Of a stretch of 64,000 bases of DNA, positions 11,913 through 62,217 are shown piece by piece. The DNA is from Balneolaceae bacterium (GTDB lineage: Bacteria > Bacteroidota > Rhodothermia > Balneolales > Balneolaceae). The notes under the pieces are model-generated. The model had not been told where the DNA came from. It saw only the letters and a program-made list of their open reading frames with translations, and did no database searches. The stretch lies in the NCBI GenBank assembly GCA_006969905.1, contig CP030887.1, positions 62,001-126,000 on the forward strand, in the 5' to 3' direction. The translations under genes and the position numbers were made by a program. Each line of letters starts with the position of its first letter. Positions within the stretch are counted from its first letter, which is position 1.

Positions 11913-12086
11913 GAAAGGGATGCCTTGAATGTTTCAATTAAAAGGACAAAGGTACAAGGAATTTCAAATAAATGGTGGAGATGTTTTCCACTCTTATTCC
12001 ACATAGTGAATAAAGCTAAACCAGAACTAAGTCAAAAAAATTTAAATAATACCCGACAGAACATTGCATCTCTTTTTTAATGTTCT

Positions 12087-12128
12087 TAAAATCTAATATC
12101 GATATTCGAATATCGATATTAGATTTTA
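12087..12128. promoter_or_regulatory. Perfect 42-bp palindrome before the Rrf2 regulator (probable operator)
   Basis: The 42 bases read identically on both strands, centred between 12107 and 12108. The core is two copies of the self-palindromic 12-mer AATATCGATATT (12096-12107 region and 12108-12119 region) separated by CG, flanked by TAAAATCT and its complement. It ends 10 bp before the ATG of the Rrf2 gene, so a bound protein would block initiation. Autoregulation by the Rrf2 protein is the simplest reading. Confidence 0.75.
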
Positions 12129-12138
12129 GAATCCTACT

Positions 12139-12591
12139 ATGAAACTAGTCTCGCAAGGCGCTCAATACGCAATCTCTGCAATTATTGCTTTATCTAAAAG
12201 TCCGCAAAAGGTTATTGCTGCTTCAGAGTTGGCACGTTCATTAAACTGTCCCGCAGCCTATCTCTCACAAATTCTTTCGAAATTAAAACAACCGGGCATT
12301 CTGAATTCTCAAAGGGGTCTGAATGGCGGAGTCTACTTGGCTAAAGAACTTCATGAAATTTCAGTATATGAAGTAGTAGCTGCTATTGATGGTGAAGCAT
12401 TTTTTTCTGCTTGTTTTATGGGTATTGAAGGATGCGGACATATAGAACCATGCCCTTTTCATACGTTTTGGTCAGCTGAGCGTGAAAAAATCAAAGAATG
12501 GCTACAATCTACTACCTTTGCCGATGCCGACCACTTAATGACCCAGGCCTGGTTTGATCAACGCCTTTCATTTACTAATGGGGTGCATTAA
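12139..12591 (+). CDS. Rrf2-family transcriptional regulator with putative Fe-S ligands
   Basis: This is a 150-residue Rrf2/IscR-type DNA-binding regulator. It has an N-terminal winged helix (SQGAQYAISAIIALS, then the recognition region AAYLSQILSKL and wing RGLNGGVYLA) and, near residues 92-105, cysteines spaced C92-x6-C99-x5-C105. These match the Fe-S ligand zone of IscR (C92, C98, C104) and NsrR. It probably senses oxygen, NO or Fe-S status. It starts the cbb3 oxidase locus, three bases before ccoI, with a 42-bp perfect palindrome just upstream. I infer that it controls itself and the oxidase genes. It is not clearly IscR, since no isc/suf genes are adjacent. Confidence 0.9.
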   Translation: MKLVSQGAQYAISAIIALSKSPQKVIAASELARSLNCPAAYLSQILSKLKQPGILNSQRGLNGGVYLAKELHEISVYEVVAAIDGEAFFSACFMGIEGCGHIEPCPFHTFWSAEREKIKEWLQSTTFADADHLMTQAWFDQRLSFTNGVH

Positions 12592-12594
12592 TCT

Positions 12595-15039
12595 ATGAAC
12601 AAAGCCGCCACTCTACAAGAAACTACTTGCTACCATTGTGGCGAACCTTGCCTGAGCGGTGAGATTGAAGCTCATGACAAATCCTTTTGCTGTGAAGGGT
12701 GCAAAAATGTCTATTCATTATTGAATAGCAATGACTTGTGCTCCTATTATGAATTGGATGAAAACCCGGGGCGTACCATTGCTGTCGGGCTTGAGCGTAA
12801 ACGATTCGACTACCTGACTGACCAGGACGTACAGCATAAGCTTATTGATTTCAAAAGCGAGAAAACGGCATCTGTTACTTTCTTTATCCCAAATATTCAT
12901 TGTACTTCGTGTGTTTGGTTGCTTGAGAACCTCCAAAAACTTGATGAAGGTATTCTACAGGGAACCGTGAACTTCCTAAAAAGAACACTCACTCTTCTTT
13001 ATAATCCTTCAACAACTGATCTTCGAAATATTGTCGAGCTCCTGACCACTATTGGTTATGAACCTGATTTGAAGCTTGATAAATTAAATTCGGCTAAGCC
13101 TTCATCTATACAAAGAGGTTTATGGCTTAAGCTGGGAGTAGCAGGCTTTTCCTTCGGTAATATTATGCTGTTCAGTTTTCCTGAATACCTGAACATGTCG
13201 GAGGCTGATTCAGTTGAAACGTTTAAGATTTTCTTCGGGGCACTAAATATTGCTTTGGCCCTTCCTGTTTTGATTTACAGCAGCAGTGATTATTTGAAAT
13301 CAGCCTGGGCTGCTATCTCGCAAAAAGGAATTAACCTGGATGTACCTATCACCATTGGCATCCTTGCTCTGTTTGGAAGAAGCCTGTATGAAATACTGAG
13401 TGGTACCGGAGCCGGGTACTTCGATTCTTTTACCGGTTTTATTTTCTTCCTGCTGATCGGTAAAGTGGTTCAAAAGAAAACTTTTGACCGGCTTTCTTTT
13501 GACCGGGATTATAAATCGTACATTCCTATCTCGGTAATGCGCCTTATCAACGGTGGAGAAGAATCCGTTCCTGTAAGCAAGCTTGAGATTGGTGATCGTA
13601 TCATTATCAGAAACCAGGAGCTGATCCCTGTTGATTCTGTTTTGGAATCGGAGATGGCTTTAATTGATTACAGCTTTATAACGGGAGAATCAGTCCCTGT
13701 AAAAGCTACTAAGGGCAGCCCTGTTTTTGCTGGCGGAAAGATTGCAGGACAATATGCTGAAATGCTGGTTACCAAAAAGGTTGAACAAAGTTATTTAACG
13801 AGCCTTTGGGAAAATGAGTCGTTCTCTGATGCACATAGTGAGAAAAAAATTACCGGCTTTGCTGACCGGATTAGTCCTTATTTCACTTATACAGTACTTG
13901 TAATTGCAGTCCTTTCATGCATCATCTGGTTGCAGATCGATCCTTCTAAAGCCTTCACTATTTTTACAGCTGTACTCATTGTTGCCTGCCCTTGTGCATT
14001 GGCTCTCTCTACTCCTTTTACGCTCGGCTCATCGGTGAATATTCTCTCAATGAATGGGCTTTATATCAGGAATACAGATATAGTTGAAGGGCTTTCAAAG
14101 GTTGATACCATTGTTTTTGACAAAACAGGAACCATAACAGAATCGGAACAAGCATTACTACGATTTAAAGGAAAGGATTTAAGTAAAGATGAACTTGATC
14201 TCGTTAAATCAGTTTGTAGGGCTTCTATTCATCCGCTGAGTAAAAAAATATTCAGCCATCTGGCAAGTCACCAGTTGGTAGAACTTACCTCTTATCAAGA
14301 AATACCGGGAAAAGGAATCACTGCGAGGCGAAACGGACAAACCCTGGTTTTGGGAAGCCGTGGTTTTGTAATTGAACAAAGCCTGCTCCAACCCGAATCC
14401 CTTCCAAAAAAAGATAGTATTGGTTCCCAGGTACACATTGTAATCAATGATGAGTATAAAGGGTTTTTCGAATTTCAGAATCAACCCAGGGAAGGCATCG
14501 CTGAGCTGATCCATCGCTTCAAAAAGACGTATCGCACTTATTTACTATCGGGAGATAATGAGAAAGAAGGCCAAAAATTTGCAGGCTTATTTGGTGGATG
14601 GACAAATATGTATTTCGACCAGTCTCCACAGCAGAAGTTAAGTTTTATCGAAAATCTTACAAGTCAGGGCAATCACGTAGTTATGGTTGGGGATGGTCTC
14701 AACGATGCCGGGGCGCTTCAAAAAAGCAATTTTGGCATTGCCCTTTCGGATGATATGAGTTCATTTTCTCCTGCTTGCGATGCCATATTAGATGGGAATG
14801 AACTCAAAAACCTGGATCAGTTTATCCAGTTCGGTAAGGTTTCGATGAATATCATATTGGCAAGTTTTGGGTTGTCTCTCCTGTACAACTTAACCGGGTT
14901 GGGCTTTGCAGTTACCGGGCACCTTTCGCCTTTGGTTGCCGCTATTATAATGCCCCTCAGTTCCATAAGTGTTATGGTTTTCACTTCACTTGCTACAAGA
15001 ATAAAAGCAAAAAAAATGGGGCTTCGAATATGGGTGTAA
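12595..15039 (+). CDS. ccoI: Copper-transporting P1B-type ATPase for cbb3 assembly (CcoI/FixI)
   Basis: This inner-membrane ATPase exports copper for insertion into the cbb3 oxidase CuB site. The 814 residues begin with a cysteine-rich metal-binding domain (CYHCGEPC at 12-19, CCEGC at 32-36), then an HMA domain with CTSC at 103-106. These are followed by transmembrane helices, the actuator TGES, the ion-site CPC in ACPCALALSTP near residue 465, the phosphorylation motif DKTGT near 508 and GDGLNDAGAL in the P-domain. The N-terminal extra domain is the usual CcoI form in this group. It overlaps ccoS by 10 bp, so the two are translationally coupled. Confidence 0.94.
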   Translation: MNKAATLQETTCYHCGEPCLSGEIEAHDKSFCCEGCKNVYSLLNSNDLCSYYELDENPGRTIAVGLERKRFDYLTDQDVQHKLIDFKSEKTASVTFFIPNIHCTSCVWLLENLQKLDEGILQGTVNFLKRTLTLLYNPSTTDLRNIVELLTTIGYEPDLKLDKLNSAKPSSIQRGLWLKLGVAGFSFGNIMLFSFPEYLNMSEADSVETFKIFFGALNIALALPVLIYSSSDYLKSAWAAISQKGINLDVPITIGILALFGRSLYEILSGTGAGYFDSFTGFIFFLLIGKVVQKKTFDRLSFDRDYKSYIPISVMRLINGGEESVPVSKLEIGDRIIIRNQELIPVDSVLESEMALIDYSFITGESVPVKATKGSPVFAGGKIAGQYAEMLVTKKVEQSYLTSLWENESFSDAHSEKKITGFADRISPYFTYTVLVIAVLSCIIWLQIDPSKAFTIFTAVLIVACPCALALSTPFTLGSSVNILSMNGLYIRNTDIVEGLSKVDTIVFDKTGTITESEQALLRFKGKDLSKDELDLVKSVCRASIHPLSKKIFSHLASHQLVELTSYQEIPGKGITARRNGQTLVLGSRGFVIEQSLLQPESLPKKDSIGSQVHIVINDEYKGFFEFQNQPREGIAELIHRFKKTYRTYLLSGDNEKEGQKFAGLFGGWTNMYFDQSPQQKLSFIENLTSQGNHVVMVGDGLNDAGALQKSNFGIALSDDMSSFSPACDAILDGNELKNLDQFIQFGKVSMNIILASFGLSLLYNLTGLGFAVTGHLSPLVAAIIMPLSSISVMVFTSLATRIKAKKMGLRIWV

Positions 15040-15215
15040 TCTTTTTCCTGATAGTATTCAGTCTCTTCGTGGCATTGGTATTTTTGGGTGCCTTCTTCTG
15101 GGCAGTAAAATCGGGGCAGTTTGATGATTCCTACACCCCTTCTGTACGAATGCTTTTCGATGACAAAAAATCTTCACACAATAACAAAACACTAACTAAT
15201 AAACGGGATGCGTAA
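15030..15215 (+). CDS. ccoS: cbb3-type oxidase assembly protein CcoS
   Basis: A 61-residue protein with a single N-terminal membrane helix (IFFLIVFSLFVALVFLGAFFWAV) followed by KSGQFDD, the signature of CcoS, which is needed to place haem and copper in the cbb3 catalytic subunit. The start overlaps the end of ccoI by 10 bp, and its TAA shares one base with the ATG of ccoNO (TAATG), showing tight coupling. The C-terminal tail is longer than the minimal family form, with a basic, Asn-rich end. Confidence 0.93.
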   Translation: MGVIFFLIVFSLFVALVFLGAFFWAVKSGQFDDSYTPSVRMLFDDKKSSHNNKTLTNKRDA

Positions 15216-17401
15216 TGTCAGTAGATACTTTTCATTATGACAACAAAATTGTTCGCAATTTTGGAGTAGCTACGATGATCTGGGGAATTATTGGGTTCCT
15301 CGTTGGTCTTATCGTTGCTCTCAAATTTATATGGCCGGATTTTCTCGGCTTTATACCAGAACTATCCTTTGGCCGCATACGGCCTCTGCATACCAATGCA
15401 GTAATCTTCGCTTTCGCGGGTAACGCTATATTTTACGGGGTGTACTACTCGCTGCCGCGGCTTTGTAAAGCCTCTATGTGGAGCGATTTACTTAGTAAAA
15501 TCCATTTTTGGGGATGGCAGGCAATCATTCTTTCAGCAGTTGCTACACTTCCTTTTGGGATTACTACGAGTAAAGAGTATGCAGAACTTGAATGGCCTAT
15601 TGACATCGCCATCACACTCATCTGGGTTGTATTTGGCCTTAACATGATGATGACGATTCTCAAAAGAAGAGAAAAGCATATTTATGTAGCTATCTGGTTC
15701 TACATTGCAACTTTTGTAACCGTAGCGGTACTTCATGTAGTTAACTCTTTCGAGGTTCCCGCTACTTTCCTTAAATCTTACCCGATATACGCCGGGGTAC
15801 AGGATGCGCTGGTTCAGTGGTGGTATGGCCACAATGCAGTGGCATTCTTCCTTACCACTCCTTTCCTGGGTATTATGTATTACTTCATTCCTAAGGCCGC
15901 AAATCGACCTATTTTCTCCTACAGATTATCGATTGTTCACTTCTGGTCATTAATCTTTATTTATATCTGGGCCGGCCCTCACCACTTACTTTATACTGCG
16001 CTTCCCGGTTGGGCTCAGGCATTGGGCACAGTATTCAGTTTAATGCTGATCGCGCCTTCATGGGGTGGTATGTTAAACGGTTTATTAACTCTGAGGGGAG
16101 CATGGGATCGTGTCCGGGAAGACCCGGTTCTCAAATTCCTTGTGGTTGGTGTTACTGCCTACGGTATGGTAACCTTTGAAGGCCCAATGCTTTCTTTAGC
16201 CAATGTAAATGCAATCGCTCATTACTCTGACTATATAATTGGTCACGTACACAATGGAGCGTTATTGTGGAATGGTGGTTTAGCCTTTGCTATGCTTTAC
16301 TACATCACTCCTCGTATTTATAAAACCGAGTTATTCTCAAGGAAGCTGGCCAATATCCACTTCTGGTTTGCTACATTAGGTGCCATATTCTACGTAATCC
16401 CCATGTACTGGGGTGGTATCACTCAAAGTTTGATGTGGAAAGACTTCACCGATCAAGGTCTTTTAACTTATCCAAACTTCCTTGAAACTGTAGTACAGAT
16501 TGTTCCAATGTATGCTCTTAGAGCCTTTGGCGGAACATTGTTCATCATTGGTGCTGTAGTGGGTATGTACAACGTATTTAAAACGGCTGCACAGGGTTCA
16601 CTTAATAGCCAGGAAGAAGCACAAGCTCCGGCTCTGGCGGAACATGGTGATGAGTCGAAAGACAAGTGGCACCGTAAATTGGAAGGCCGTCCATTTAAGT
16701 TCACTCTTTTTGTAGTTATATCTATCCTGATTGGAGGTATTGTAGAATACATGCCTACTGCTCTGGTCGATTCAAATATTCCAACCATTGAAAGTGTACA
16801 GCCATACACTGCCCTGGAAGTGGAAGGGCGTGATATTTATATCTCTGAAGGCTGTAATAACTGTCACTCTCAAATGATCCGTCCATTCCGCTCAGAAACC
16901 GAGCGCTATGGCGAGTACTCAAAAGCCGGGGAGTTTGTTTACGACCATCCATTCTTATGGGGTTCTAAACGTACCGGCCCAGACTTGCACCGAATTGGAG
17001 GAAAATATCCCGATTCATGGCATTTACGCCACATGTACGATCCTAACTCAACCTCACCTGGTTCTATAATGCCAGCATATCCATGGTTGTTGACAAAAGA
17101 AATGGATATGGAAACTATGCCAAACAGAATAGAAGCATTAACCACAGTGGGTGTTCCGTATTCTCCCCGTTATCCTGAGTATGCCATTGAAGATATGAAG
17201 GCGCAAGCTGAGCGTATTACCAATGGACTTCGTGAAAATGGCTTCGGTACCATTGAAGGAATCGAGATTACTTCAGACAAGCAGATTATAGCACTTATTG
17301 CTTACCTGCAACGATTGGGAACTGATATTAAAGGAGATAATGATCCGTTTGCAGACCTCCCATCAAGCAAAAAACTCTCACCTGTAATTATGGAGAAATG
17401 A
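15215..17401 (+). CDS. ccoNO: Fused cbb3 cytochrome c oxidase subunits I and II (CcoN-CcoO)
   Basis: This is the catalytic core of a high-affinity, proton-pumping terminal oxidase. Residues 1 to about 480 form CcoN, with multiple transmembrane helices and haem/copper histidine segments such as RPLHTNAVIFAF, VQWWYGHNAVAFF, GPHHLLYT and YIIGHVHNGALLWNG. After a helix around residues 490-512, the CcoO part carries one c-type haem site, CNNCH near residue 547, followed by SQMIRPFRSETERYGEYS and a distal methionine region (GSIMPAYPWLL). Fusion of N and O in one 728-residue chain is common in Bacteroidota. It is the third gene of the ccoI operon. Confidence 0.97.
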   Translation: MSVDTFHYDNKIVRNFGVATMIWGIIGFLVGLIVALKFIWPDFLGFIPELSFGRIRPLHTNAVIFAFAGNAIFYGVYYSLPRLCKASMWSDLLSKIHFWGWQAIILSAVATLPFGITTSKEYAELEWPIDIAITLIWVVFGLNMMMTILKRREKHIYVAIWFYIATFVTVAVLHVVNSFEVPATFLKSYPIYAGVQDALVQWWYGHNAVAFFLTTPFLGIMYYFIPKAANRPIFSYRLSIVHFWSLIFIYIWAGPHHLLYTALPGWAQALGTVFSLMLIAPSWGGMLNGLLTLRGAWDRVREDPVLKFLVVGVTAYGMVTFEGPMLSLANVNAIAHYSDYIIGHVHNGALLWNGGLAFAMLYYITPRIYKTELFSRKLANIHFWFATLGAIFYVIPMYWGGITQSLMWKDFTDQGLLTYPNFLETVVQIVPMYALRAFGGTLFIIGAVVGMYNVFKTAAQGSLNSQEEAQAPALAEHGDESKDKWHRKLEGRPFKFTLFVVISILIGGIVEYMPTALVDSNIPTIESVQPYTALEVEGRDIYISEGCNNCHSQMIRPFRSETERYGEYSKAGEFVYDHPFLWGSKRTGPDLHRIGGKYPDSWHLRHMYDPNSTSPGSIMPAYPWLLTKEMDMETMPNRIEALTTVGVPYSPRYPEYAIEDMKAQAERITNGLRENGFGTIEGIEITSDKQIIALIAYLQRLGTDIKGDNDPFADLPSSKKLSPVIMEK

Positions 17402-17402
17402 G

Positions 17403-17594
17403 ATGTATAAAGAAGTATTAAGATCCATGGAAGGTGTGGAATTATTTCCAAGCATTTCGCTGATCCTCTTTTTTGCTTTCTTCGTGCTGCTGGTCGTATG
17501 GCTGGTTAAGCACGGAAAACATCATTGGGATGATGCCGCAAACCTTCCTTTGGAAGCCAATGACAATCACGAATTTTTAACTAAAGAATCATGA
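17403..17594 (+). CDS. ccoQ: cbb3 oxidase small subunit CcoQ
   Basis: A 63-residue, single-helix membrane protein (SISLILFFAFFVLLVVWLV) followed by a basic, His-containing cytoplasmic tail. Size, topology and position between ccoNO and ccoP identify it as the CcoQ/FixQ-type stabilising subunit. The sequence alone is too short for a firm family match. It begins one base after the ccoNO stop and overlaps ccoP by four bases (ATGA). Confidence 0.87.
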   Translation: MYKEVLRSMEGVELFPSISLILFFAFFVLLVVWLVKHGKHHWDDAANLPLEANDNHEFLTKES

Positions 17595-18184
17595 AAATAT
17601 TAGACGACGAGAAGGATAAACTACTCAATCATGAGTACGATGGTATCAGGGAGTTGGACAATCATATGCCTCTTTGGTGGCTGTGGTTGTTTTATTTCAC
17701 CATCGCATTTGGTGTAGGCTATATGGCTTACTACTACTTGCTTGGCGGGCCAGATCAGCACGAAGAATACGCTATGGAAATGGCGGAAGCAGCCGAAAAA
17801 TTCAAAATGGATGAACCCGAAGAAGGTGCACCTTCTTTTGCATGGGCTTTCAGTGATGATCCCGATGTAATTGCACGAGGCCAGGAAGTCTTCATGGGAA
17901 TGAATAACCTGTGCTTTACCTGCCATGGAAATGCCGGAGAAGGGCTTGTAGGCCCAAACCTCACTGATGATAAATGGATAAGCGGTTGCTCTGCTGAGGC
18001 TATTGCCACAAGTATTATAACCGGTTTCCCGGATAAAGGAATGGTTCCTTATGGAAGCGGGGCACCACTTCCAAATGAAGATGTAAATGCTCTTGTAAGC
18101 TATATCGGTTCTTTGCAAGGTACAAATCCGGCCAATCCAAAGGCTGTGGATGAAGCCCGGGCCGTAGATTGCACAATCGAATAA
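17591..18184 (+). CDS. ccoP: cbb3 oxidase cytochrome c subunit CcoP, single-haem form
   Basis: This membrane-anchored cytochrome c passes electrons to CcoO/CcoN. The 197 residues start with the FixP-type N-terminal segment (YDGIRELDNHMPLWWLWLFYFTIAFGV written in parts), which supplies one membrane helix. One c-haem site, CFTCH at 108-112, follows, and a likely axial Met lies in DKGMVPYG. Textbook proteobacterial CcoP is dihaem (about 300 residues). Only one CxxCH is present here, as I recall for other Bacteroidota. It ends the first cbb3 transcription unit, and a terminator lies 35 bp later. Confidence 0.94.
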   Translation: MKILDDEKDKLLNHEYDGIRELDNHMPLWWLWLFYFTIAFGVGYMAYYYLLGGPDQHEEYAMEMAEAAEKFKMDEPEEGAPSFAWAFSDDPDVIARGQEVFMGMNNLCFTCHGNAGEGLVGPNLTDDKWISGCSAEAIATSIITGFPDKGMVPYGSGAPLPNEDVNALVSYIGSLQGTNPANPKAVDEARAVDCTIE

Positions 18185-18284: not shown

Positions 18285-19739
18285 ATGTCATCAGAGAAAG
18301 AGCGCTTAATAGGAAAAGATCAATTCAGAGACCGGTTAGCAACAGTTAGTGAGACGGGTGGCAGAAACTGGATTTATGCAAAAAAACCTAGTGGAAGGTT
18401 TTATAATGCCAGGACTATTGTATCCTTGCTTCTTCTTGGATTCTTTTTCTCCGGGCCATTTATAACTATTAATGGGAATCCACTTCTACTCATTAACATA
18501 CTGGAACGTAAGTTCGTGATATTCGGCGTTGCTTTTTGGCCTCAGGATTTACACCTGTTGGTTTTTGGAATGCTGGCATTTATAGTCTTTATAGTAGTTT
18601 TCACAGCCATATTCGGACGACTTTTTTGCGGATGGGCGTGTCCGCAAACCATTTTTTTGGAAATGGTATTCCGGAAAATTGAATATTGGATTGAAGGAGA
18701 TGCCTCTGCCCAGATTCGATTGAAAAGAGCCCCATGGAATGCGGAAAAGATTATCAAAAAAGTATCTAAACATGGAATCTTCTATGCACTGGCCTTCATT
18801 ATTTCCAATCTCTTTCTTGCCTACATCATCGGTAAAGACCAATTGTTTGAAATAATTACTGACCCACCCTCCGAACATGCAGGCGGACTGGCTGCGATGA
18901 TTATTTTTAGCGGAGTGTTTTACGGGGTATTTGCTTTTATGCGTGAACAGGTTTGCCATTTCGTATGTCCTTATGGACGCATGCAATCTGTTATGCTCGA
19001 CAATAACTCCATTAACGTAATGTATGATTACGTGCGCGGAGAAGAACGGGCAAGCGTGGGGGACCGGAAAAAAGTAGAAGTTGGAAAAGCCACTCTTGCT
19101 GATTTAGGTTTTTCGGAAAATACTTCTTTCGGCGATTGTATAGACTGTTACCAATGCGTAAAAGTATGCCCGATGGGAATTGATATTCGAAATGGTACCC
19201 AGTTGGAATGTGTACACTGTACAGCATGTATTGATGCCTGCGATGATATCATGGACAAAATTGACAAGCCCCGTGGATTAATTCGGTACTCTTCGGAGAA
19301 CATCATTCGTGGAGAAGAAACTAAAGTATTTACTCCAAGAGTAATTGGGTATAGTGCCATACTGGTTATCCTGCTCTCGGTTTTCATCACTCTGCTGACT
19401 ATGCGTTCTGATCTTGAAACTACCATTCTGCGCCAAAGGGGCACGTTATATCAAACATTGCCTAATAATGTGTATAGTAATATTTACGAGCTCAAAATCA
19501 TCAATAAAACCTTTGATGAAATGGAGTATGAGATACGATTACTTGCACCGGAAGGTGAATTGGTGCCGCTAGGTATTATGGAAACTGTACCTCCGCAAGA
19601 TCTTGCTGAAGGCAGATTCCTGATAAAGCTCCCTCAAAACCAGCTTACCGGATTACAAACGGAGCTCACATTTGGCGTTTATGTAAATGGAGAACAAATT
19701 GAAACTGTAACTTCCGGATTTATAGGTCCGGCTAATTAA
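18285..19739 (+). CDS. ccoG: cbb3 oxidase accessory protein CcoG (FixG/RdxA family)
   Basis: This polyferredoxin-like membrane protein is linked to copper reduction during cbb3 assembly. The 484 residues contain several membrane helices and cysteine motifs: CGWACPQTIF near residue 115, CHFVCPYGRMQ near 225, and two 4Fe-4S clusters in CIDCYQCVKVCP and CVHCTACIDACD near 285-320. The C-terminal 110 residues after the last helix form the periplasmic FixG immunoglobulin-like domain. FixH follows after 13 bp, so this starts the second cbb3 unit. Confidence 0.95.
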   Translation: MSSEKERLIGKDQFRDRLATVSETGGRNWIYAKKPSGRFYNARTIVSLLLLGFFFSGPFITINGNPLLLINILERKFVIFGVAFWPQDLHLLVFGMLAFIVFIVVFTAIFGRLFCGWACPQTIFLEMVFRKIEYWIEGDASAQIRLKRAPWNAEKIIKKVSKHGIFYALAFIISNLFLAYIIGKDQLFEIITDPPSEHAGGLAAMIIFSGVFYGVFAFMREQVCHFVCPYGRMQSVMLDNNSINVMYDYVRGEERASVGDRKKVEVGKATLADLGFSENTSFGDCIDCYQCVKVCPMGIDIRNGTQLECVHCTACIDACDDIMDKIDKPRGLIRYSSENIIRGEETKVFTPRVIGYSAILVILLSVFITLLTMRSDLETTILRQRGTLYQTLPNNVYSNIYELKIINKTFDEMEYEIRLLAPEGELVPLGIMETVPPQDLAEGRFLIKLPQNQLTGLQTELTFGVYVNGEQIETVTSGFIGPAN

Positions 19740-19752
19740 CAAGATTATTATC

Positions 19753-20199
19753 ATGAAAAAAATGAATTGGGGAAAAGGTCTTGCCCTGGCTATAACTATT
19801 TTTATAATCGGTACTCTCAGTATGGTAAGTTATTTCATGAGCCTGGATTTCTTTTTAGTAACTAATAACCACTATGAAGAAGGCGTGGAATACCAACAAA
19901 CCATTGACAGTAAAAACCGTGCTGCCCAGCTTGAAAACCCCGTCTTAGTTGTATTCGATGAAAAAATGGAAGCACTAAAAGTGGTGTTCCCTAATGAGCT
20001 TATAGGAAAAGCTCAGGGTAACATCAATTTGTATCGTCCTAATAACCCTGAATTGGATAAAAAAATACCCCTTAATGTTAATGCTACAGGAACACAGGTT
20101 ATCCCTGTTTCCGAAATGGAAAAAGGGAAATGGATCCTCAAGATTAAGTGGAAAATGGATGATCTTGACTACCTGTCAGAAAAAACCATTGTCATCTAA
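19753..20199 (+). CDS. ccoH: FixH/CcoH-family cbb3 assembly protein
   Basis: A 148-residue protein with one N-terminal membrane helix (GLALAITIFIIGTLSMVSYFM) and a periplasmic beta-rich domain with the FixH pattern of DFFLVTNNHYEEGVEYQ at the membrane exit and WILKIKWKMD near the end. FixH/CcoH is required for stable cbb3 complexes, possibly with CcoI. The stop codon abuts the ATG of the next gene without a gap, indicating translational coupling. Confidence 0.9.
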   Translation: MKKMNWGKGLALAITIFIIGTLSMVSYFMSLDFFLVTNNHYEEGVEYQQTIDSKNRAAQLENPVLVVFDEKMEALKVVFPNELIGKAQGNINLYRPNNPELDKKIPLNVNATGTQVIPVSEMEKGKWILKIKWKMDDLDYLSEKTIVI

Positions 20200-20910
20200 A
20201 TGGAACTTTGGACCGCACTGGCTTTAGGATTTCTGGGCAGTTTTCACTGCGTAGGGATGTGCGGCCCCATTGTTTTATCGGTTCCCCGTAGCAGTTCTGG
20301 TTTTCTTTCCCTTTCTGTTAGCTCATTTATTTATAACTCAGGAAGAATCCTTACCTATTCTATCTTTGGCCTTCTTTTTGGGTTCCTGGGAAGAGAGATC
20401 ACATTGTCAGGTTTCCAAAGCTGGCTTTCAATACTTATGGGAGTGAGTATCCTGGCTGCAGTTCTTTTTTCCCGCCAATTAAAAAAATCCCGGAAACCAA
20501 AAATCTATACCTCTTTTGTTTCTTTTATTACCCAAACATATAACCGGCTAATTCGAAAAAAATCTAAATCAGCCCTTTTTGGAATGGGGTTTTTGAATGG
20601 TTTACTTCCCTGTGCTTTTGTATATACCGGTTTAGCTGCTGCGGTATTAACTGAAACTCCTTATCACAGCATGGCTTATATGGCGTTATTTGGATTGGGA
20701 ACCGTTCCTGCTATGTTTTCCATATATCTTGCCCCTAATTTTGTTTCTATTGATTTACGATCTGCGATAAGAAAATACCTTCCCTACTTTGCTGTTTTTC
20801 TGGGGGTATTCCTCATATTCAGGGGTGTTGCTTTGCAGGACCTTCGCTTACCTGTAACTTTAATGGAAGGCATGGAGCCATTTTGTGTGTTCCCCGGCAC
20901 AGGAAATTAA
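20200..20910 (+). CDS. Sulfite exporter TauE/SafE-type (DsbD_2) membrane protein of the cbb3 locus
   Basis: A 236-residue polytopic inner-membrane protein. The N-terminus GFLGSFHCVGMCGPIVLS is the conserved Cys-containing start of the TauE/SafE-annotated DsbD_2 family that regularly accompanies ccoG-fixH. A second conserved block is GFLNGLLPCAFVYTGLAAA with LPC. About six helices are visible. The paired FHCVGMCGP and LPC segments suggest a role in copper or thiol chemistry during oxidase maturation, but the real substrate is unknown. It ends the second cbb3 unit. Confidence 0.9.
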   Translation: MELWTALALGFLGSFHCVGMCGPIVLSVPRSSSGFLSLSVSSFIYNSGRILTYSIFGLLFGFLGREITLSGFQSWLSILMGVSILAAVLFSRQLKKSRKPKIYTSFVSFITQTYNRLIRKKSKSALFGMGFLNGLLPCAFVYTGLAAAVLTETPYHSMAYMALFGLGTVPAMFSIYLAPNFVSIDLRSAIRKYLPYFAVFLGVFLIFRGVALQDLRLPVTLMEGMEPFCVFPGTGN

Positions 20911-60000: not shown

Positions 60001-62217
60001 TCAAAACCGGTGGGTATAGCTCAGCTTCACAATGCCGGCCTGGGTAGTGGTCTCGAAGCGGCCGAGCGGATCTTCCTGCCAGTTGTGGTTGTATACCAGG
60101 AACAAATTGGAGCCGGGAGTAATGATCCAGCGCAGCCGGTTATTCAACCCGATCTCTTTACTCAGGTTATCATACTGAAGATTGGTTGTGAAGAACAGTT
60201 CTGTGGTTAAATCCCAGATTCCTTCGAAGAGAAATAGATCCGCATCGAAATCTCCTTCCGGTAACCGGATCATACTTCGCTCATAACTCGGGGAGAATTC
60301 CACACCGGGGATAGGCCGGAAACTCAAACCGGCTTCAATTTCGGTGGAAGTTCCTGTCCAGAAGCCATTGTATTCGACTTCAAAATCTGCTGATATTTTC
60401 CTGAATTCAGCTGTATTGATCTGAAATTCAGTACTCCAGTTTTCATATTCATCCACAGGGATAATAATGCTTCCATCACGGCGAATATCAAATTCCTCAT
60501 CCAGCAATTCGTAATTTCTGCCTACCCGCCATCTTACACGGTCACCACTTGCAAAGCGTACATCCGCCAGGGTGAAAATCAGATTCTGTGTTAAGAGTGT
60601 GAAATCTAAATCTGTCAGGTGCTCAAAACGGATCCCCCATTCCACTTCGTCAATGGTTCTGCTGGCTGCAAACTGTGGGGTAAATGCGACGGAAGGCTGT
60701 AACCGGCGAAAAGCAACCCTTCGTGCAAAACCTACAGCCGGGTTGAACGTTTCTCCAAACTCCCTGTAGGAAACGTGCCCGGACCATGGCCTGTTGGGGA
60801 AATTCAAACGAACTCCCCGGGATGAACGATCAGCAATGTTTGTGGAATTATCTGATACTTCTGCCGGGTTATGAAACACAAAAAACGCCTGGAACTGGAG
60901 GTTTTTATCTCCCAAAAAAGATGAGGTTGCCAATTCCAGATCAGCACCGAAGGTATGCCGGTCCTGCAAGGAATCAACGTCAGAGGTAGCCCTTCGTGTA
61001 TAAATAAGGCCAAGCGTACTTTCACTGCCAATGTTTCGCTTAACCCGTGCAACCGTGAAATTCTCCGGATCCAAAGCACCACTTTCACCCGTTCGTACAT
61101 GGAGAATTGCCAGGTTATTTTCTCCCACATTACCTAGTAACCGGGCACCATAGGTAATAGGAACCGGCTTCCTGGCATTTAACCCGATCCTTCGACTGAA
61201 ATACGGATTGATCCCGCTGCTTGGCGCAAAAGAATAAATATTGGCCCCTTCCAAAAAGAAATCACGTTGCTCCGGGAATGCGATTGGAAAGCGGGTAAGG
61301 TTTACCTGTCTCTGGTCAACTTCTGCTTCTGCAAAATCTGTATTGAAGGTCACTGAAGCCTTCAAACTTGGGGTGATGTTATAATTGATGTCTATTCCTG
61401 CATCGGGACTGAGTTCAGCTTCCGTATCATCTCCCGTCAAGTCCCGCGAAACACTTCCGATTCCAAAAGGAACAACTTCGAGCCCCAGGCCCTGCGAAAT
61501 ATCCTTCAATCCCGTAAGAAGTCCTGCATCCTGCGGCCGGGAAATCCCTTGGTTTCTGCGGTGCCCGGTCCATAAGGCTGTTTCATTTTTTCTTCTTATC
61601 ACCCGCATGAAGTTCACGCCCCAGTGATCGCTGTTTTCATCAAAATTGAGCGTTCTGAAAGGAATCTTGATTTCAGCTGACCACCCATACTCACCAATGT
61701 AGGTGCGGGCATCCCATATGCCATCCCAGTTCAAATTAATTCCTCCGCCCTGCCCGGAACTGACCAAACCATCAGTTCTTAATCCATTCGGGTTGATCTC
61801 CATGAAATAGGCATTCCGCTGATCATTAAAGGTGTCGAAGATCCAGACAAAGCGTTCATCAGCGGTGATCCTTTGATCCCTCCTTTTCTGAAAAGCTTTT
61901 ATCTGTTCGGGGTCACTATCATATAAAATTACCCCGATATAGAGGTATTGGCTATCATACGCGATTCTTACCTCTGTTTTTTCCGTTGCAGGGTTTCCTT
62001 CAACAGGAGCACTTTGCAAAAAACCTGAGGCCGGCAACATCCTGTTCCAAAAATCCTCGTTTATCTTTCCATCAAATCGGAAATCTGTTTTTTCTGCATC
62101 ATTTAACTGGTATGCCTGTACCGTTTTGCCATCCTCACTTACCGATTGAAATGCATATGTATTTGTATGAATAGCCAGTAAAACGACTACCGGTAAAATG
62201 CCCTTTAGATTCTTCAA
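60001..62217 (-). CDS. Large exported CBM9-like / DUF5916 outer-membrane protein
   Basis: A 738-residue protein with a signal peptide (GILPVVVLLAIHTNTYA). The N-terminal third is a carbohydrate-binding family 9-like beta-sandwich (FDGKINEDFWNRMLPASGF, VRIAYDSQYLYIGVILYDSDPEQI, NFMRVIRRKNETALW in parts). The rest is DUF5916, a beta-barrel that ends in a His-Arg-Phe C-terminus (SYTHRF) like outer-membrane barrels. It is common in Bacteroidota, where its job is unknown. Monocistronic, convergent with the 112-residue gene. Confidence 0.9.
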   Translation of the reverse strand: MKNLKGILPVVVLLAIHTNTYAFQSVSEDGKTVQAYQLNDAEKTDFRFDGKINEDFWNRMLPASGFLQSAPVEGNPATEKTEVRIAYDSQYLYIGVILYDSDPEQIKAFQKRRDQRITADERFVWIFDTFNDQRNAYFMEINPNGLRTDGLVSSGQGGGINLNWDGIWDARTYIGEYGWSAEIKIPFRTLNFDENSDHWGVNFMRVIRRKNETALWTGHRRNQGISRPQDAGLLTGLKDISQGLGLEVVPFGIGSVSRDLTGDDTEAELSPDAGIDINYNITPSLKASVTFNTDFAEAEVDQRQVNLTRFPIAFPEQRDFFLEGANIYSFAPSSGINPYFSRRIGLNARKPVPITYGARLLGNVGENNLAILHVRTGESGALDPENFTVARVKRNIGSESTLGLIYTRRATSDVDSLQDRHTFGADLELATSSFLGDKNLQFQAFFVFHNPAEVSDNSTNIADRSSRGVRLNFPNRPWSGHVSYREFGETFNPAVGFARRVAFRRLQPSVAFTPQFAASRTIDEVEWGIRFEHLTDLDFTLLTQNLIFTLADVRFASGDRVRWRVGRNYELLDEEFDIRRDGSIIIPVDEYENWSTEFQINTAEFRKISADFEVEYNGFWTGTSTEIEAGLSFRPIPGVEFSPSYERSMIRLPEGDFDADLFLFEGIWDLTTELFFTTNLQYDNLSKEIGLNNRLRWIITPGSNLFLVYNHNWQEDPLGRFETTTQAGIVKLSYTHRF

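Follow-up and report, generated by a model that had tools for sequence, protein, structure and literature searches.

A perfect 42-bp palindrome before an Rrf2-family gene and a cbb3 oxidase operon in Balneolaceae: a putative double operator overlapping a predicted promoter

Oxygen control of cbb3-type oxidases is usually exerted by FNR/FixK proteins, by activation. The locus described here raises the question of what a perfect 42-bp palindrome does in front of a gene for an Rrf2-family regulator that leads into a cbb3 operon, which protein would bind it and to what signal the operon would respond. It lies in a stretch of 64,000 nucleotides (the window; positions 62,001 to 126,000 of contig CP030887.1, assembly GCA_006969905.1) from a Balneolaceae bacterium, whose genome is 3.49 Mb in one contig and 99.8% complete.

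The palindrome, the regulator and the genes behind it

The following features, in window coordinates, make up the locus.

12087 to 12128, no strand: perfect palindrome of 42 bp, its letters equal to their own reverse complement
12139 to 12591, plus strand: Rrf2-family regulator of 150 aa (TIGR00738 at 94.9 bits, cut-off 73.3; PF02082)
12595 to 15039, plus strand: ccoI-type P-ATPase (TIGR01525 over cut-off; PF12156, PF00403)
15030 to 15215, plus strand: small ORF of 61 aa at the ccoS position, named from size and position
15215 to 17401, plus strand: fused ccoNO (PRK14485, TIGR00780 and TIGR00781 over cut-off)
17403 to 17594, plus strand: small ORF of 63 aa at the ccoQ position, named from size and position
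17591 to 18184, plus strand: ccoP with one CxxCH motif (FixP_N, Cytochrome_CBB3; TIGR00782 below cut-off)
18285 to 19739, plus strand: ccoG (TIGR02745 over cut-off)
19753 to 20199, plus strand: ccoH (FixH; PF05751)
20200 to 20910, plus strand: DsbD_2 membrane protein (PF13386)

An earlier note on this DNA had claimed perfect self-complementarity over 42 bp, and TAAAATCTAATATCGATATTCGAATATCGATATTAGATTTTA is indeed its own reverse complement, the symmetry being stopped by the flanking bases T and G. The coordinates likewise bear out its description of two self-palindromic 12-mers joined by CG, as AATATCGATATT occupies 12095-12106 and 12109-12120, with 10 bp between the end of the palindrome and the Rrf2 ATG. 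Arms of at least 21 bases are expected about 3e-8 times per window, 2e-6 times per genome and 5e-4 times per genome at 80% AT, the runner-up perfect palindrome within the window measures 18 bp, and a palindrome of 42 bp is far beyond chance. The genome holds three copies of the 12-mer, two in the palindrome and one inside a 611-aa ORF that resembles a PAS/histidine kinase (named from its sequence), and the 26-bp core is a single copy even when 3 mismatches are allowed.

The position of the Rrf2 gene directly ahead of a cbb3 operon, also claimed earlier, was confirmed by models for ccoI, ccoNO, ccoP, ccoG, ccoH and DsbD_2. In 18 of 18 orthologous loci in named genomes (Balneolaceae, Balneola, Gracilimonas, Fodinibius, related MAGs and one Rhodothermia), ccoI is located behind Rrf2, as is ccoN where the contig extends that far. 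Using a profile score of at least 180 bits to count Rrf2 as present, 46 of the 128 genomes of the order were found to carry it, and ccoN was found in 48, 44 of them with Rrf2 (Fisher 4e-27, kinship uncorrected); a class-wide profile search of 244 genomes revealed no additional Rrf2 match above 119 bits. The two genes are within 5 kb of each other in 41 of the 44 genomes having both. Contig ends lie at ccoN or ccoI in the four genomes where ccoN alone was found (G098, G102, G107 and G117), and the contig stops before or inside ccoN in the two with Rrf2 only (G033 and G087). In G099 ccoN is near a contig start, and in G100 and G101 Rrf2 and cco are truly apart; in G100 the ccoI frame, as called, is preceded by TATAATATTGATATTCGA, which resembles a site with 2 mismatches and lies some 210 bp ahead of the frame's first ATG.

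Membership of the regulator in the Rrf2 superfamily is supported by PF02082 (99.6 bits against 30) and by winged-helix fold matches. Cysteines at 92, 99 and 105, to which attention had been drawn before, are all present and belong to a set of candidate ligands, C92-x6-C99-x5-C105-x2-H108, that is invariant in 19 orthologues. The [2Fe-2S] ligand set of IscR consists of three Cys and one His, while the cluster ligands of RsrR differ from Cys3-His. IscR of Escherichia coli resembles the window protein in this Cys3-His set, ranks first among solved structures in the profile comparison and has the best-matching equivalog model (TIGR02010); however, the C-x6-C spacing differs, the neighbours are cco and not isc or suf genes, and TIGR02010 reaches 74.4 bits against 207.55. 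Scores for NsrR (PRK11014, 28.2 bits against 182), RirA (NF008886, 46.1 against 193) and CymR (NF047409, 48.7 against 195) also fall short of these equivalogs. The predicted structure has a moderate mean pLDDT of 75.5, with values of 50-60 in the ligand loop, and its nearest solved structures are RsrR, CymR and IscR (TM about 0.64-0.66 on query). In a tree of 42 rows, the cco Rrf2 proteins form a single clade (100/100), and within it those of Balneolaceae form a subclade (100/100); three rows labelled f1cco are other Rrf2 paralogues from those loci and group with the outgroup.

Promoter and operator architecture in the order

The -10 box served to align 33 upstream sequences from Balneolaceae (family f1); rows L007 and L008, both of them tandem extra copies, were left out of the conservation counts. 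The 42-bp comparison covers 31 of the 33, as the main copies L007.1 and L008.1 run into the ATG and were dropped. The following elements were recognised in the window.

12064 to 12069, plus strand: predicted -35 box TTGCAT, with TTG at the same spacing in 33/33 Balneolaceae sequences
12087 to 12092, plus strand: predicted -10 box TAAAAT, conserved in 33/33 at five positions and 32/33 at one
12092 to 12109, no strand: operator site 1, TCTAATATCGATATTCGA, 1 mismatch to TCTAATATNNATATTAGA; G000:C1:74092-74109 in genome coordinates
12106 to 12123, no strand: operator site 2, TCGAATATCGATATTAGA, its centre 14 bp from that of site 1

The two boxes are separated by a 17-bp spacer, the -10 box is the left end of the palindrome, and the promoter-operator pattern was found once in the window. 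A sigma-70 scan, whose rule needs 9 of 12 matches, called no promoter here, because the conserved TTGCAT/TAAAAT pair has fewer than 9 of 12. In the 33 sequences, the last T of the -10 box is the first base of the 18-bp operator TCTAATATNNATATTAGA. The two 12-mers form the cores of the two 18-bp sites. Across the 31 sequences site 1 averages 1.0 mismatch of 16, and site 2 is weaker, averaging 3.3 mismatches of 16 as compared to 9.1 in a register-shifted control and being decayed in some sequences to as many as 8. A third half-site, ATATTAGA, follows 14 bp on and is kept in most Balneolaceae, and the bases on either side of the whole promoter-operator element drift.

Sites 1 and 2 share 4 bp, which read TAGA in 19 of the 31 sequences, TCGA in 11, as in the window, and TCAA in 1. 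Site 1 would call for TAGA in this overlap and site 2 for TCTA, which cannot both be present, and TCGA thus represents a compromise; in combination with equal centres and equal flanks, it renders all 42 bp of the window's palindrome self-complementary. Full symmetry was seen only in the window's genome, with 21 of 21 symmetric pairs, the remaining 30 full-length Balneolaceae sequences having 10 to 19 of 21. Conservation in orthologous loci, which the earlier note had made the test of its idea, accordingly holds for the promoter and operator contained in the palindrome, and the perfect 42-bp symmetry is confined to this genome.

Outside the Balneolaceae, the unit is an 18-bp repeat, TCTAATAT-NN-ATATTAGA. 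It was found with 0-1 mismatch at cco-linked Rrf2 loci of family f3 (2/3) and family f5 (1/1), in single form 62-71 bp before the ATG, and with 1-2 mismatches at 7/7 loci of the sister family f2, one of which (L080) is on a contig without cco. The cco-linked f3 locus L077 of G105 has no recognisable site, the best match having 5 mismatches. A second 18-bp site at +14 was found in 0/9 measurable f2, f3 and f5 loci (of 11), with 7 to 13 mismatches of 16 at that place, which in three f2 loci is taken by a weak half-site (1-2 mismatches of 8). Since other families exhibit a single site, the unit appears to be the 18-bp repeat, to which a second overlapping copy was added in Balneolaceae. What stands of the two-site operator proposed earlier is that the 18-bp sites are conserved and tied to Rrf2 and cbb3, with the correction that site 2 is weaker and that the site is single outside Balneolaceae. 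From single site through double site to perfect palindrome, the loci form a natural series in which the evolution of overlapping operators can be followed.

At four f2 loci (L083, L085, L086 and L087), a further conserved, palindrome-like sequence around TTTAGATTTTATCTAA lies upstream of the operator before the cco-linked Rrf2 gene and is possibly the site of another regulator.

Sites beyond the cco promoter

In the window's genome, the 18-bp pattern at 3 mismatches gave 35 sites against 63 with the reversed control, so that nothing is conspicuous beyond cco, and the YceI orthologue of this genome has no site. A second operator copy precedes the YceI gene in G001, G003 and G031, in double form in G001 and G003. 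YceI as a general Balneolaceae target was rejected, as a site with at most 1 mismatch was found at 3/25 loci of Rrf2-bearing and 0/3 loci of other genomes, 28 of the 30 loci given having a placeable start.

In nine f2 genomes, 78 sites were counted at no more than 2 mismatches as compared to 20 with the reversed pattern, an approximately fourfold difference. The list of downstream genes was drawn from 50 sites, 49 of the 78 and one in G098; all nine non-cco sites of G092 were included, and elsewhere sites with 1 mismatch or recurring letters were preferred, so that the recurrence of genes is partly selected, though the genes were unknown at the time of choosing. Behind these sites, pflB is found in at least seven genomes (G092, G093 and G095-G099), a protein of 603-609 aa that matches no known family in at least five, with a divergent U32 peptidase/UbiU-like gene beside it in four of the five, AMP-dependent ligases in at least four, and acetyl-CoA hydrolase/transferase and Usp genes in at least three each. 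At least two cases each were observed of hemN, protoporphyrinogen oxidase, DsbD_2, an asparaginase/EF-G pair and a DsrE-like gene (scoring under the Pfam cut-off); sdhC, PEPCK, a POR-domain protein and an amphi-Trp protein were each seen once, and a multiheme cytochrome gene is 349 bp from one site. Other sites precede genes without an evident connection, namely GAPDH, sir2/OsmC, lipoprotein-like and unknown genes. One example per named family was model-checked, except for the asparaginase/EF-G pair. Much of the f2 list consists of low-oxygen genes, and FNR governs sets of such a kind in other bacteria.

Two further properties of the f2 sites were discarded as evidence. All 50 are intergenic, and so were 22/29 matches to shuffled or reversed AT-rich patterns, scored at 3 mismatches. 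Promoter overlap at the non-cco sites, judged by TANNNT, amounted to 12/49 as against 12/49 on the control side, and repression is hence argued for the cco promoter only. Seven sites with at most 1 mismatch are present in G099, in which one member of the Rrf2 clade was found. At L154 of this genome (G099:C192:9385 and 9522), a porin gene is preceded by a pair of sites spaced 137 bp from each other.

Proposed switch, alternative readings and related regulators

The 42-bp palindrome is probably a promoter-overlapping double operator of an autorepressing Rrf2 switch that turns on cbb3 at low oxygen or upon a redox change. One Rrf2 dimer would recognise one 18-bp inverted repeat, and in Balneolaceae a second repeat would have been laid 14 bp further along, overlapping the first. 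Since site 1 starts within the -10 box, at its final base, a dimer bound there would stand in the way of RNA polymerase, and dimers covering the -10 box and the start point would repress rrf2 itself and the cco operon behind it. Loss or reduction of a putative cluster at low oxygen (or a redox change, or NO) would weaken binding, free the promoter and switch on the high-affinity cbb3 oxidase. In this scheme, we infer repression from the position within the promoter and the signal from the identity of the genes.

As judged by genome content, the operator follows Rrf2 and not CRP/FNR. With at most 1 mismatch, it is present in 36/46 Rrf2-bearing genomes, ten having no site at this level, and in 5/82 Rrf2-lacking ones, namely G098, an f2 genome with a cut cco contig whose site precedes pflB, G002 and G080, where the sites fall inside ORFs, and G059 and G079, where they lie before other genes. 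The double form occurs in 26/128 genomes, all Rrf2-bearing, the one in G100 being a stray 3-mismatch match elsewhere. Were the site that of a CRP/FNR-type or another regulator of rrf2-cco and the f2 genes, with Rrf2 as a passenger, one would understand why pflB, hemN, Usp and other genes of a kind that FNR controls elsewhere are found behind it, and the window's genome does contain two CRP/FNR-type matches. However, HTH_Crp_2 (E 1e-5) is absent from 14/46 Rrf2-bearing genomes, several of which are nearly complete and have good operators, and is present in 53/82 of those lacking Rrf2, so that CRP/FNR does not explain the site. Furthermore, the motif is not an FNR box, such boxes precede rrf2-cco in just 3/46 upstream regions (up to 200 bp, at most 1 mismatch), and none was found near the locus within the window. 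On the regulator families searched, Rrf2 and CRP/FNR, such a role for another regulator is very unlikely. In five genomes of the f2 genus g22, two Rrf2 paralogues are present, and hence either may be the binder of a given site there.

With Rrf2 as the binder, the palindrome could also be read by a single dimer through outer half-sites TCTAATAT/ATATTAGA 24 bp apart, the inner 12-mers being incidental. Retention of the third half-site in most Balneolaceae, its weak counterpart in three f2 loci and the TCGA centre, which fits the outer symmetry, would be in line with this, but it is distinctly unlikely given that the f3 and f5 loci, though furnished with the inner 18-bp repeat, lack a half-site where one would be predicted and that the commoner TAGA centre breaks the outer symmetry and perfects the inner site. 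The outer G-C contacts would moreover lie about 14.5 bp from the dyad, whereas in the portions of the structural report on the NsrR complex with 23-bp DNA considered here, contacts reach about 11 bp (PMC9338935), a reach that would be in keeping with a dimer on each AT-flanked 18-bp repeat, and not with a single dimer on the whole 42 bp. That the palindrome functions as an RNA hairpin in the 5' leader is scarcely credible and was rejected: the window's own strand folds at -23 kcal/mol (z -3.9), but the predicted start inside the left arm would leave the full stem untranscribed, the pairs are broken in relatives, with Watson-Crick pairing at pair 14/27 in 6% and at 20/21 in 35% of the 31 sequences, and the site of f3 and f5 is single and well upstream of the ATG. 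Somewhat unlikely, with operator and protein unchanged, is a different signal: NO as with NsrR, Fe-S supply as with IscR, or the supply of copper to the oxidase. A metal P-ATPase gene is part of the same operon, and the signals of Rrf2 relatives include NO, Fe-S status, iron and redox in the portions of the literature drawn upon (PMC5015018, PMC9338935); against it, beside the 50 f2 sites no gene for Fe-S assembly or NO detoxification was recognised, and low-oxygen genes recur.

Returning to the double-operator switch, a broader proposal, put forward tentatively and with slightly less than even confidence, is that an Rrf2 Fe-S clade, here seen in Balneolales only, may have taken the role of FNR, acting as a master switch in f2, with Balneolaceae using it for cbb3 only, under a doubled operator. 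If true, the f2 switch would cover pflB, hemN, protoporphyrinogen oxidase, U32, CoA-transferase, Usp and cbb3, and would amount to the takeover of a regulon by an unrelated Fe-S regulator. The order appears to control cbb3 through a protein family other than FNR/FixK, with a short, well-defined operator. FNR/FixK control is alike in involving low-oxygen genes and cbb3 as a target, and differs in protein family, in DNA site and in acting by activation as against repression at the -10 box. The rdxBHIS genes, relevant to one of the comparisons below, are cbb3 assembly genes.

In titles and opening lines of abstracts of open-licence PMC papers, no description of this Rrf2-cbb3 link was found. The nearest cases in print, as far as the excerpts at hand extend, are MppG and AFE_3141. 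MppG of Rhodobacter sphaeroides, an Rrf2 protein, represses rdxBHIS as a direct target and has a ChIP peak at its own gene; in contrast to the present system, the sections concerned give no definable motif, name photopigment genes as the main targets and do not place it in a cco operon (PMC4263372). The Rrf2 gene AFE_3141 of Acidithiobacillus ferrooxidans is predicted to be part of an oxidase operon, cta, which its product has been proposed to regulate, but according to the extracts from that paper it is proposed to be iron-responsive, and the operon is cta and not cbb3, with no defined site (PMC5506826). By analogy, RsrR of Streptomyces venezuelae, an Rrf2 [2Fe-2S] redox switch, would be the nearest worked example of the proposed mechanism. 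It shares the Rrf2 fold, being among the top rows of the fold search, and the available part of its description reports two full sites 1 bp apart in the rsrR promoter region, considers autoregulation likely and finds that the oxidised cluster form binds DNA best (PMC5015018). It differs in an 11-3-11 operator, as compared to the shorter 8-2-8 repeats with 4-bp overlap and AT-rich flanks here, and in class 1 targets in NAD(P)H and glutamate metabolism, unlike cbb3 (same part, PMC5015018). An 11-3-11 inverted repeat was not found at the Balneolales operator, whose conserved core is 8-2-8. The regulatory system is thus not quite the unplaceable one of the earlier note, the rsrR double site and the repression of rdxBHIS by MppG being precedents in the excerpted sources (PMC5015018, PMC4263372).

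Several other Rrf2 genes were encountered. In G001 and G003 (L007, L008 and L091), a tandem second copy lies about 550 bp upstream of the cco-linked gene; this copy is preceded, at 7 bp from its ATG, by a separate imperfect site, TCTAATGAGAATATTATA, with 3 mismatches. The second, same-clade paralogue of g22 (L072-L076) is located away from cco, with a porin-like neighbour in L072 and L075 and a different AT-rich repeat upstream. The other related Rrf2 protein of the window's genome (L002; G000:C1:3414657) has 31% identity and a different ligand loop, CVLGLPHCNHDNPCFLH, and its gene adjoins cytochrome-c-like and fasciclin-like genes, named from their sequences. In another family of the class (L095 and L098), an Rrf2 gene with the loop CVLGLPGCGEAEPCPLH is followed by ScdA/YtfE-like and hemN-like genes, recognised by eye, an arrangement that may represent a possible NO/Fe-S repair unit.
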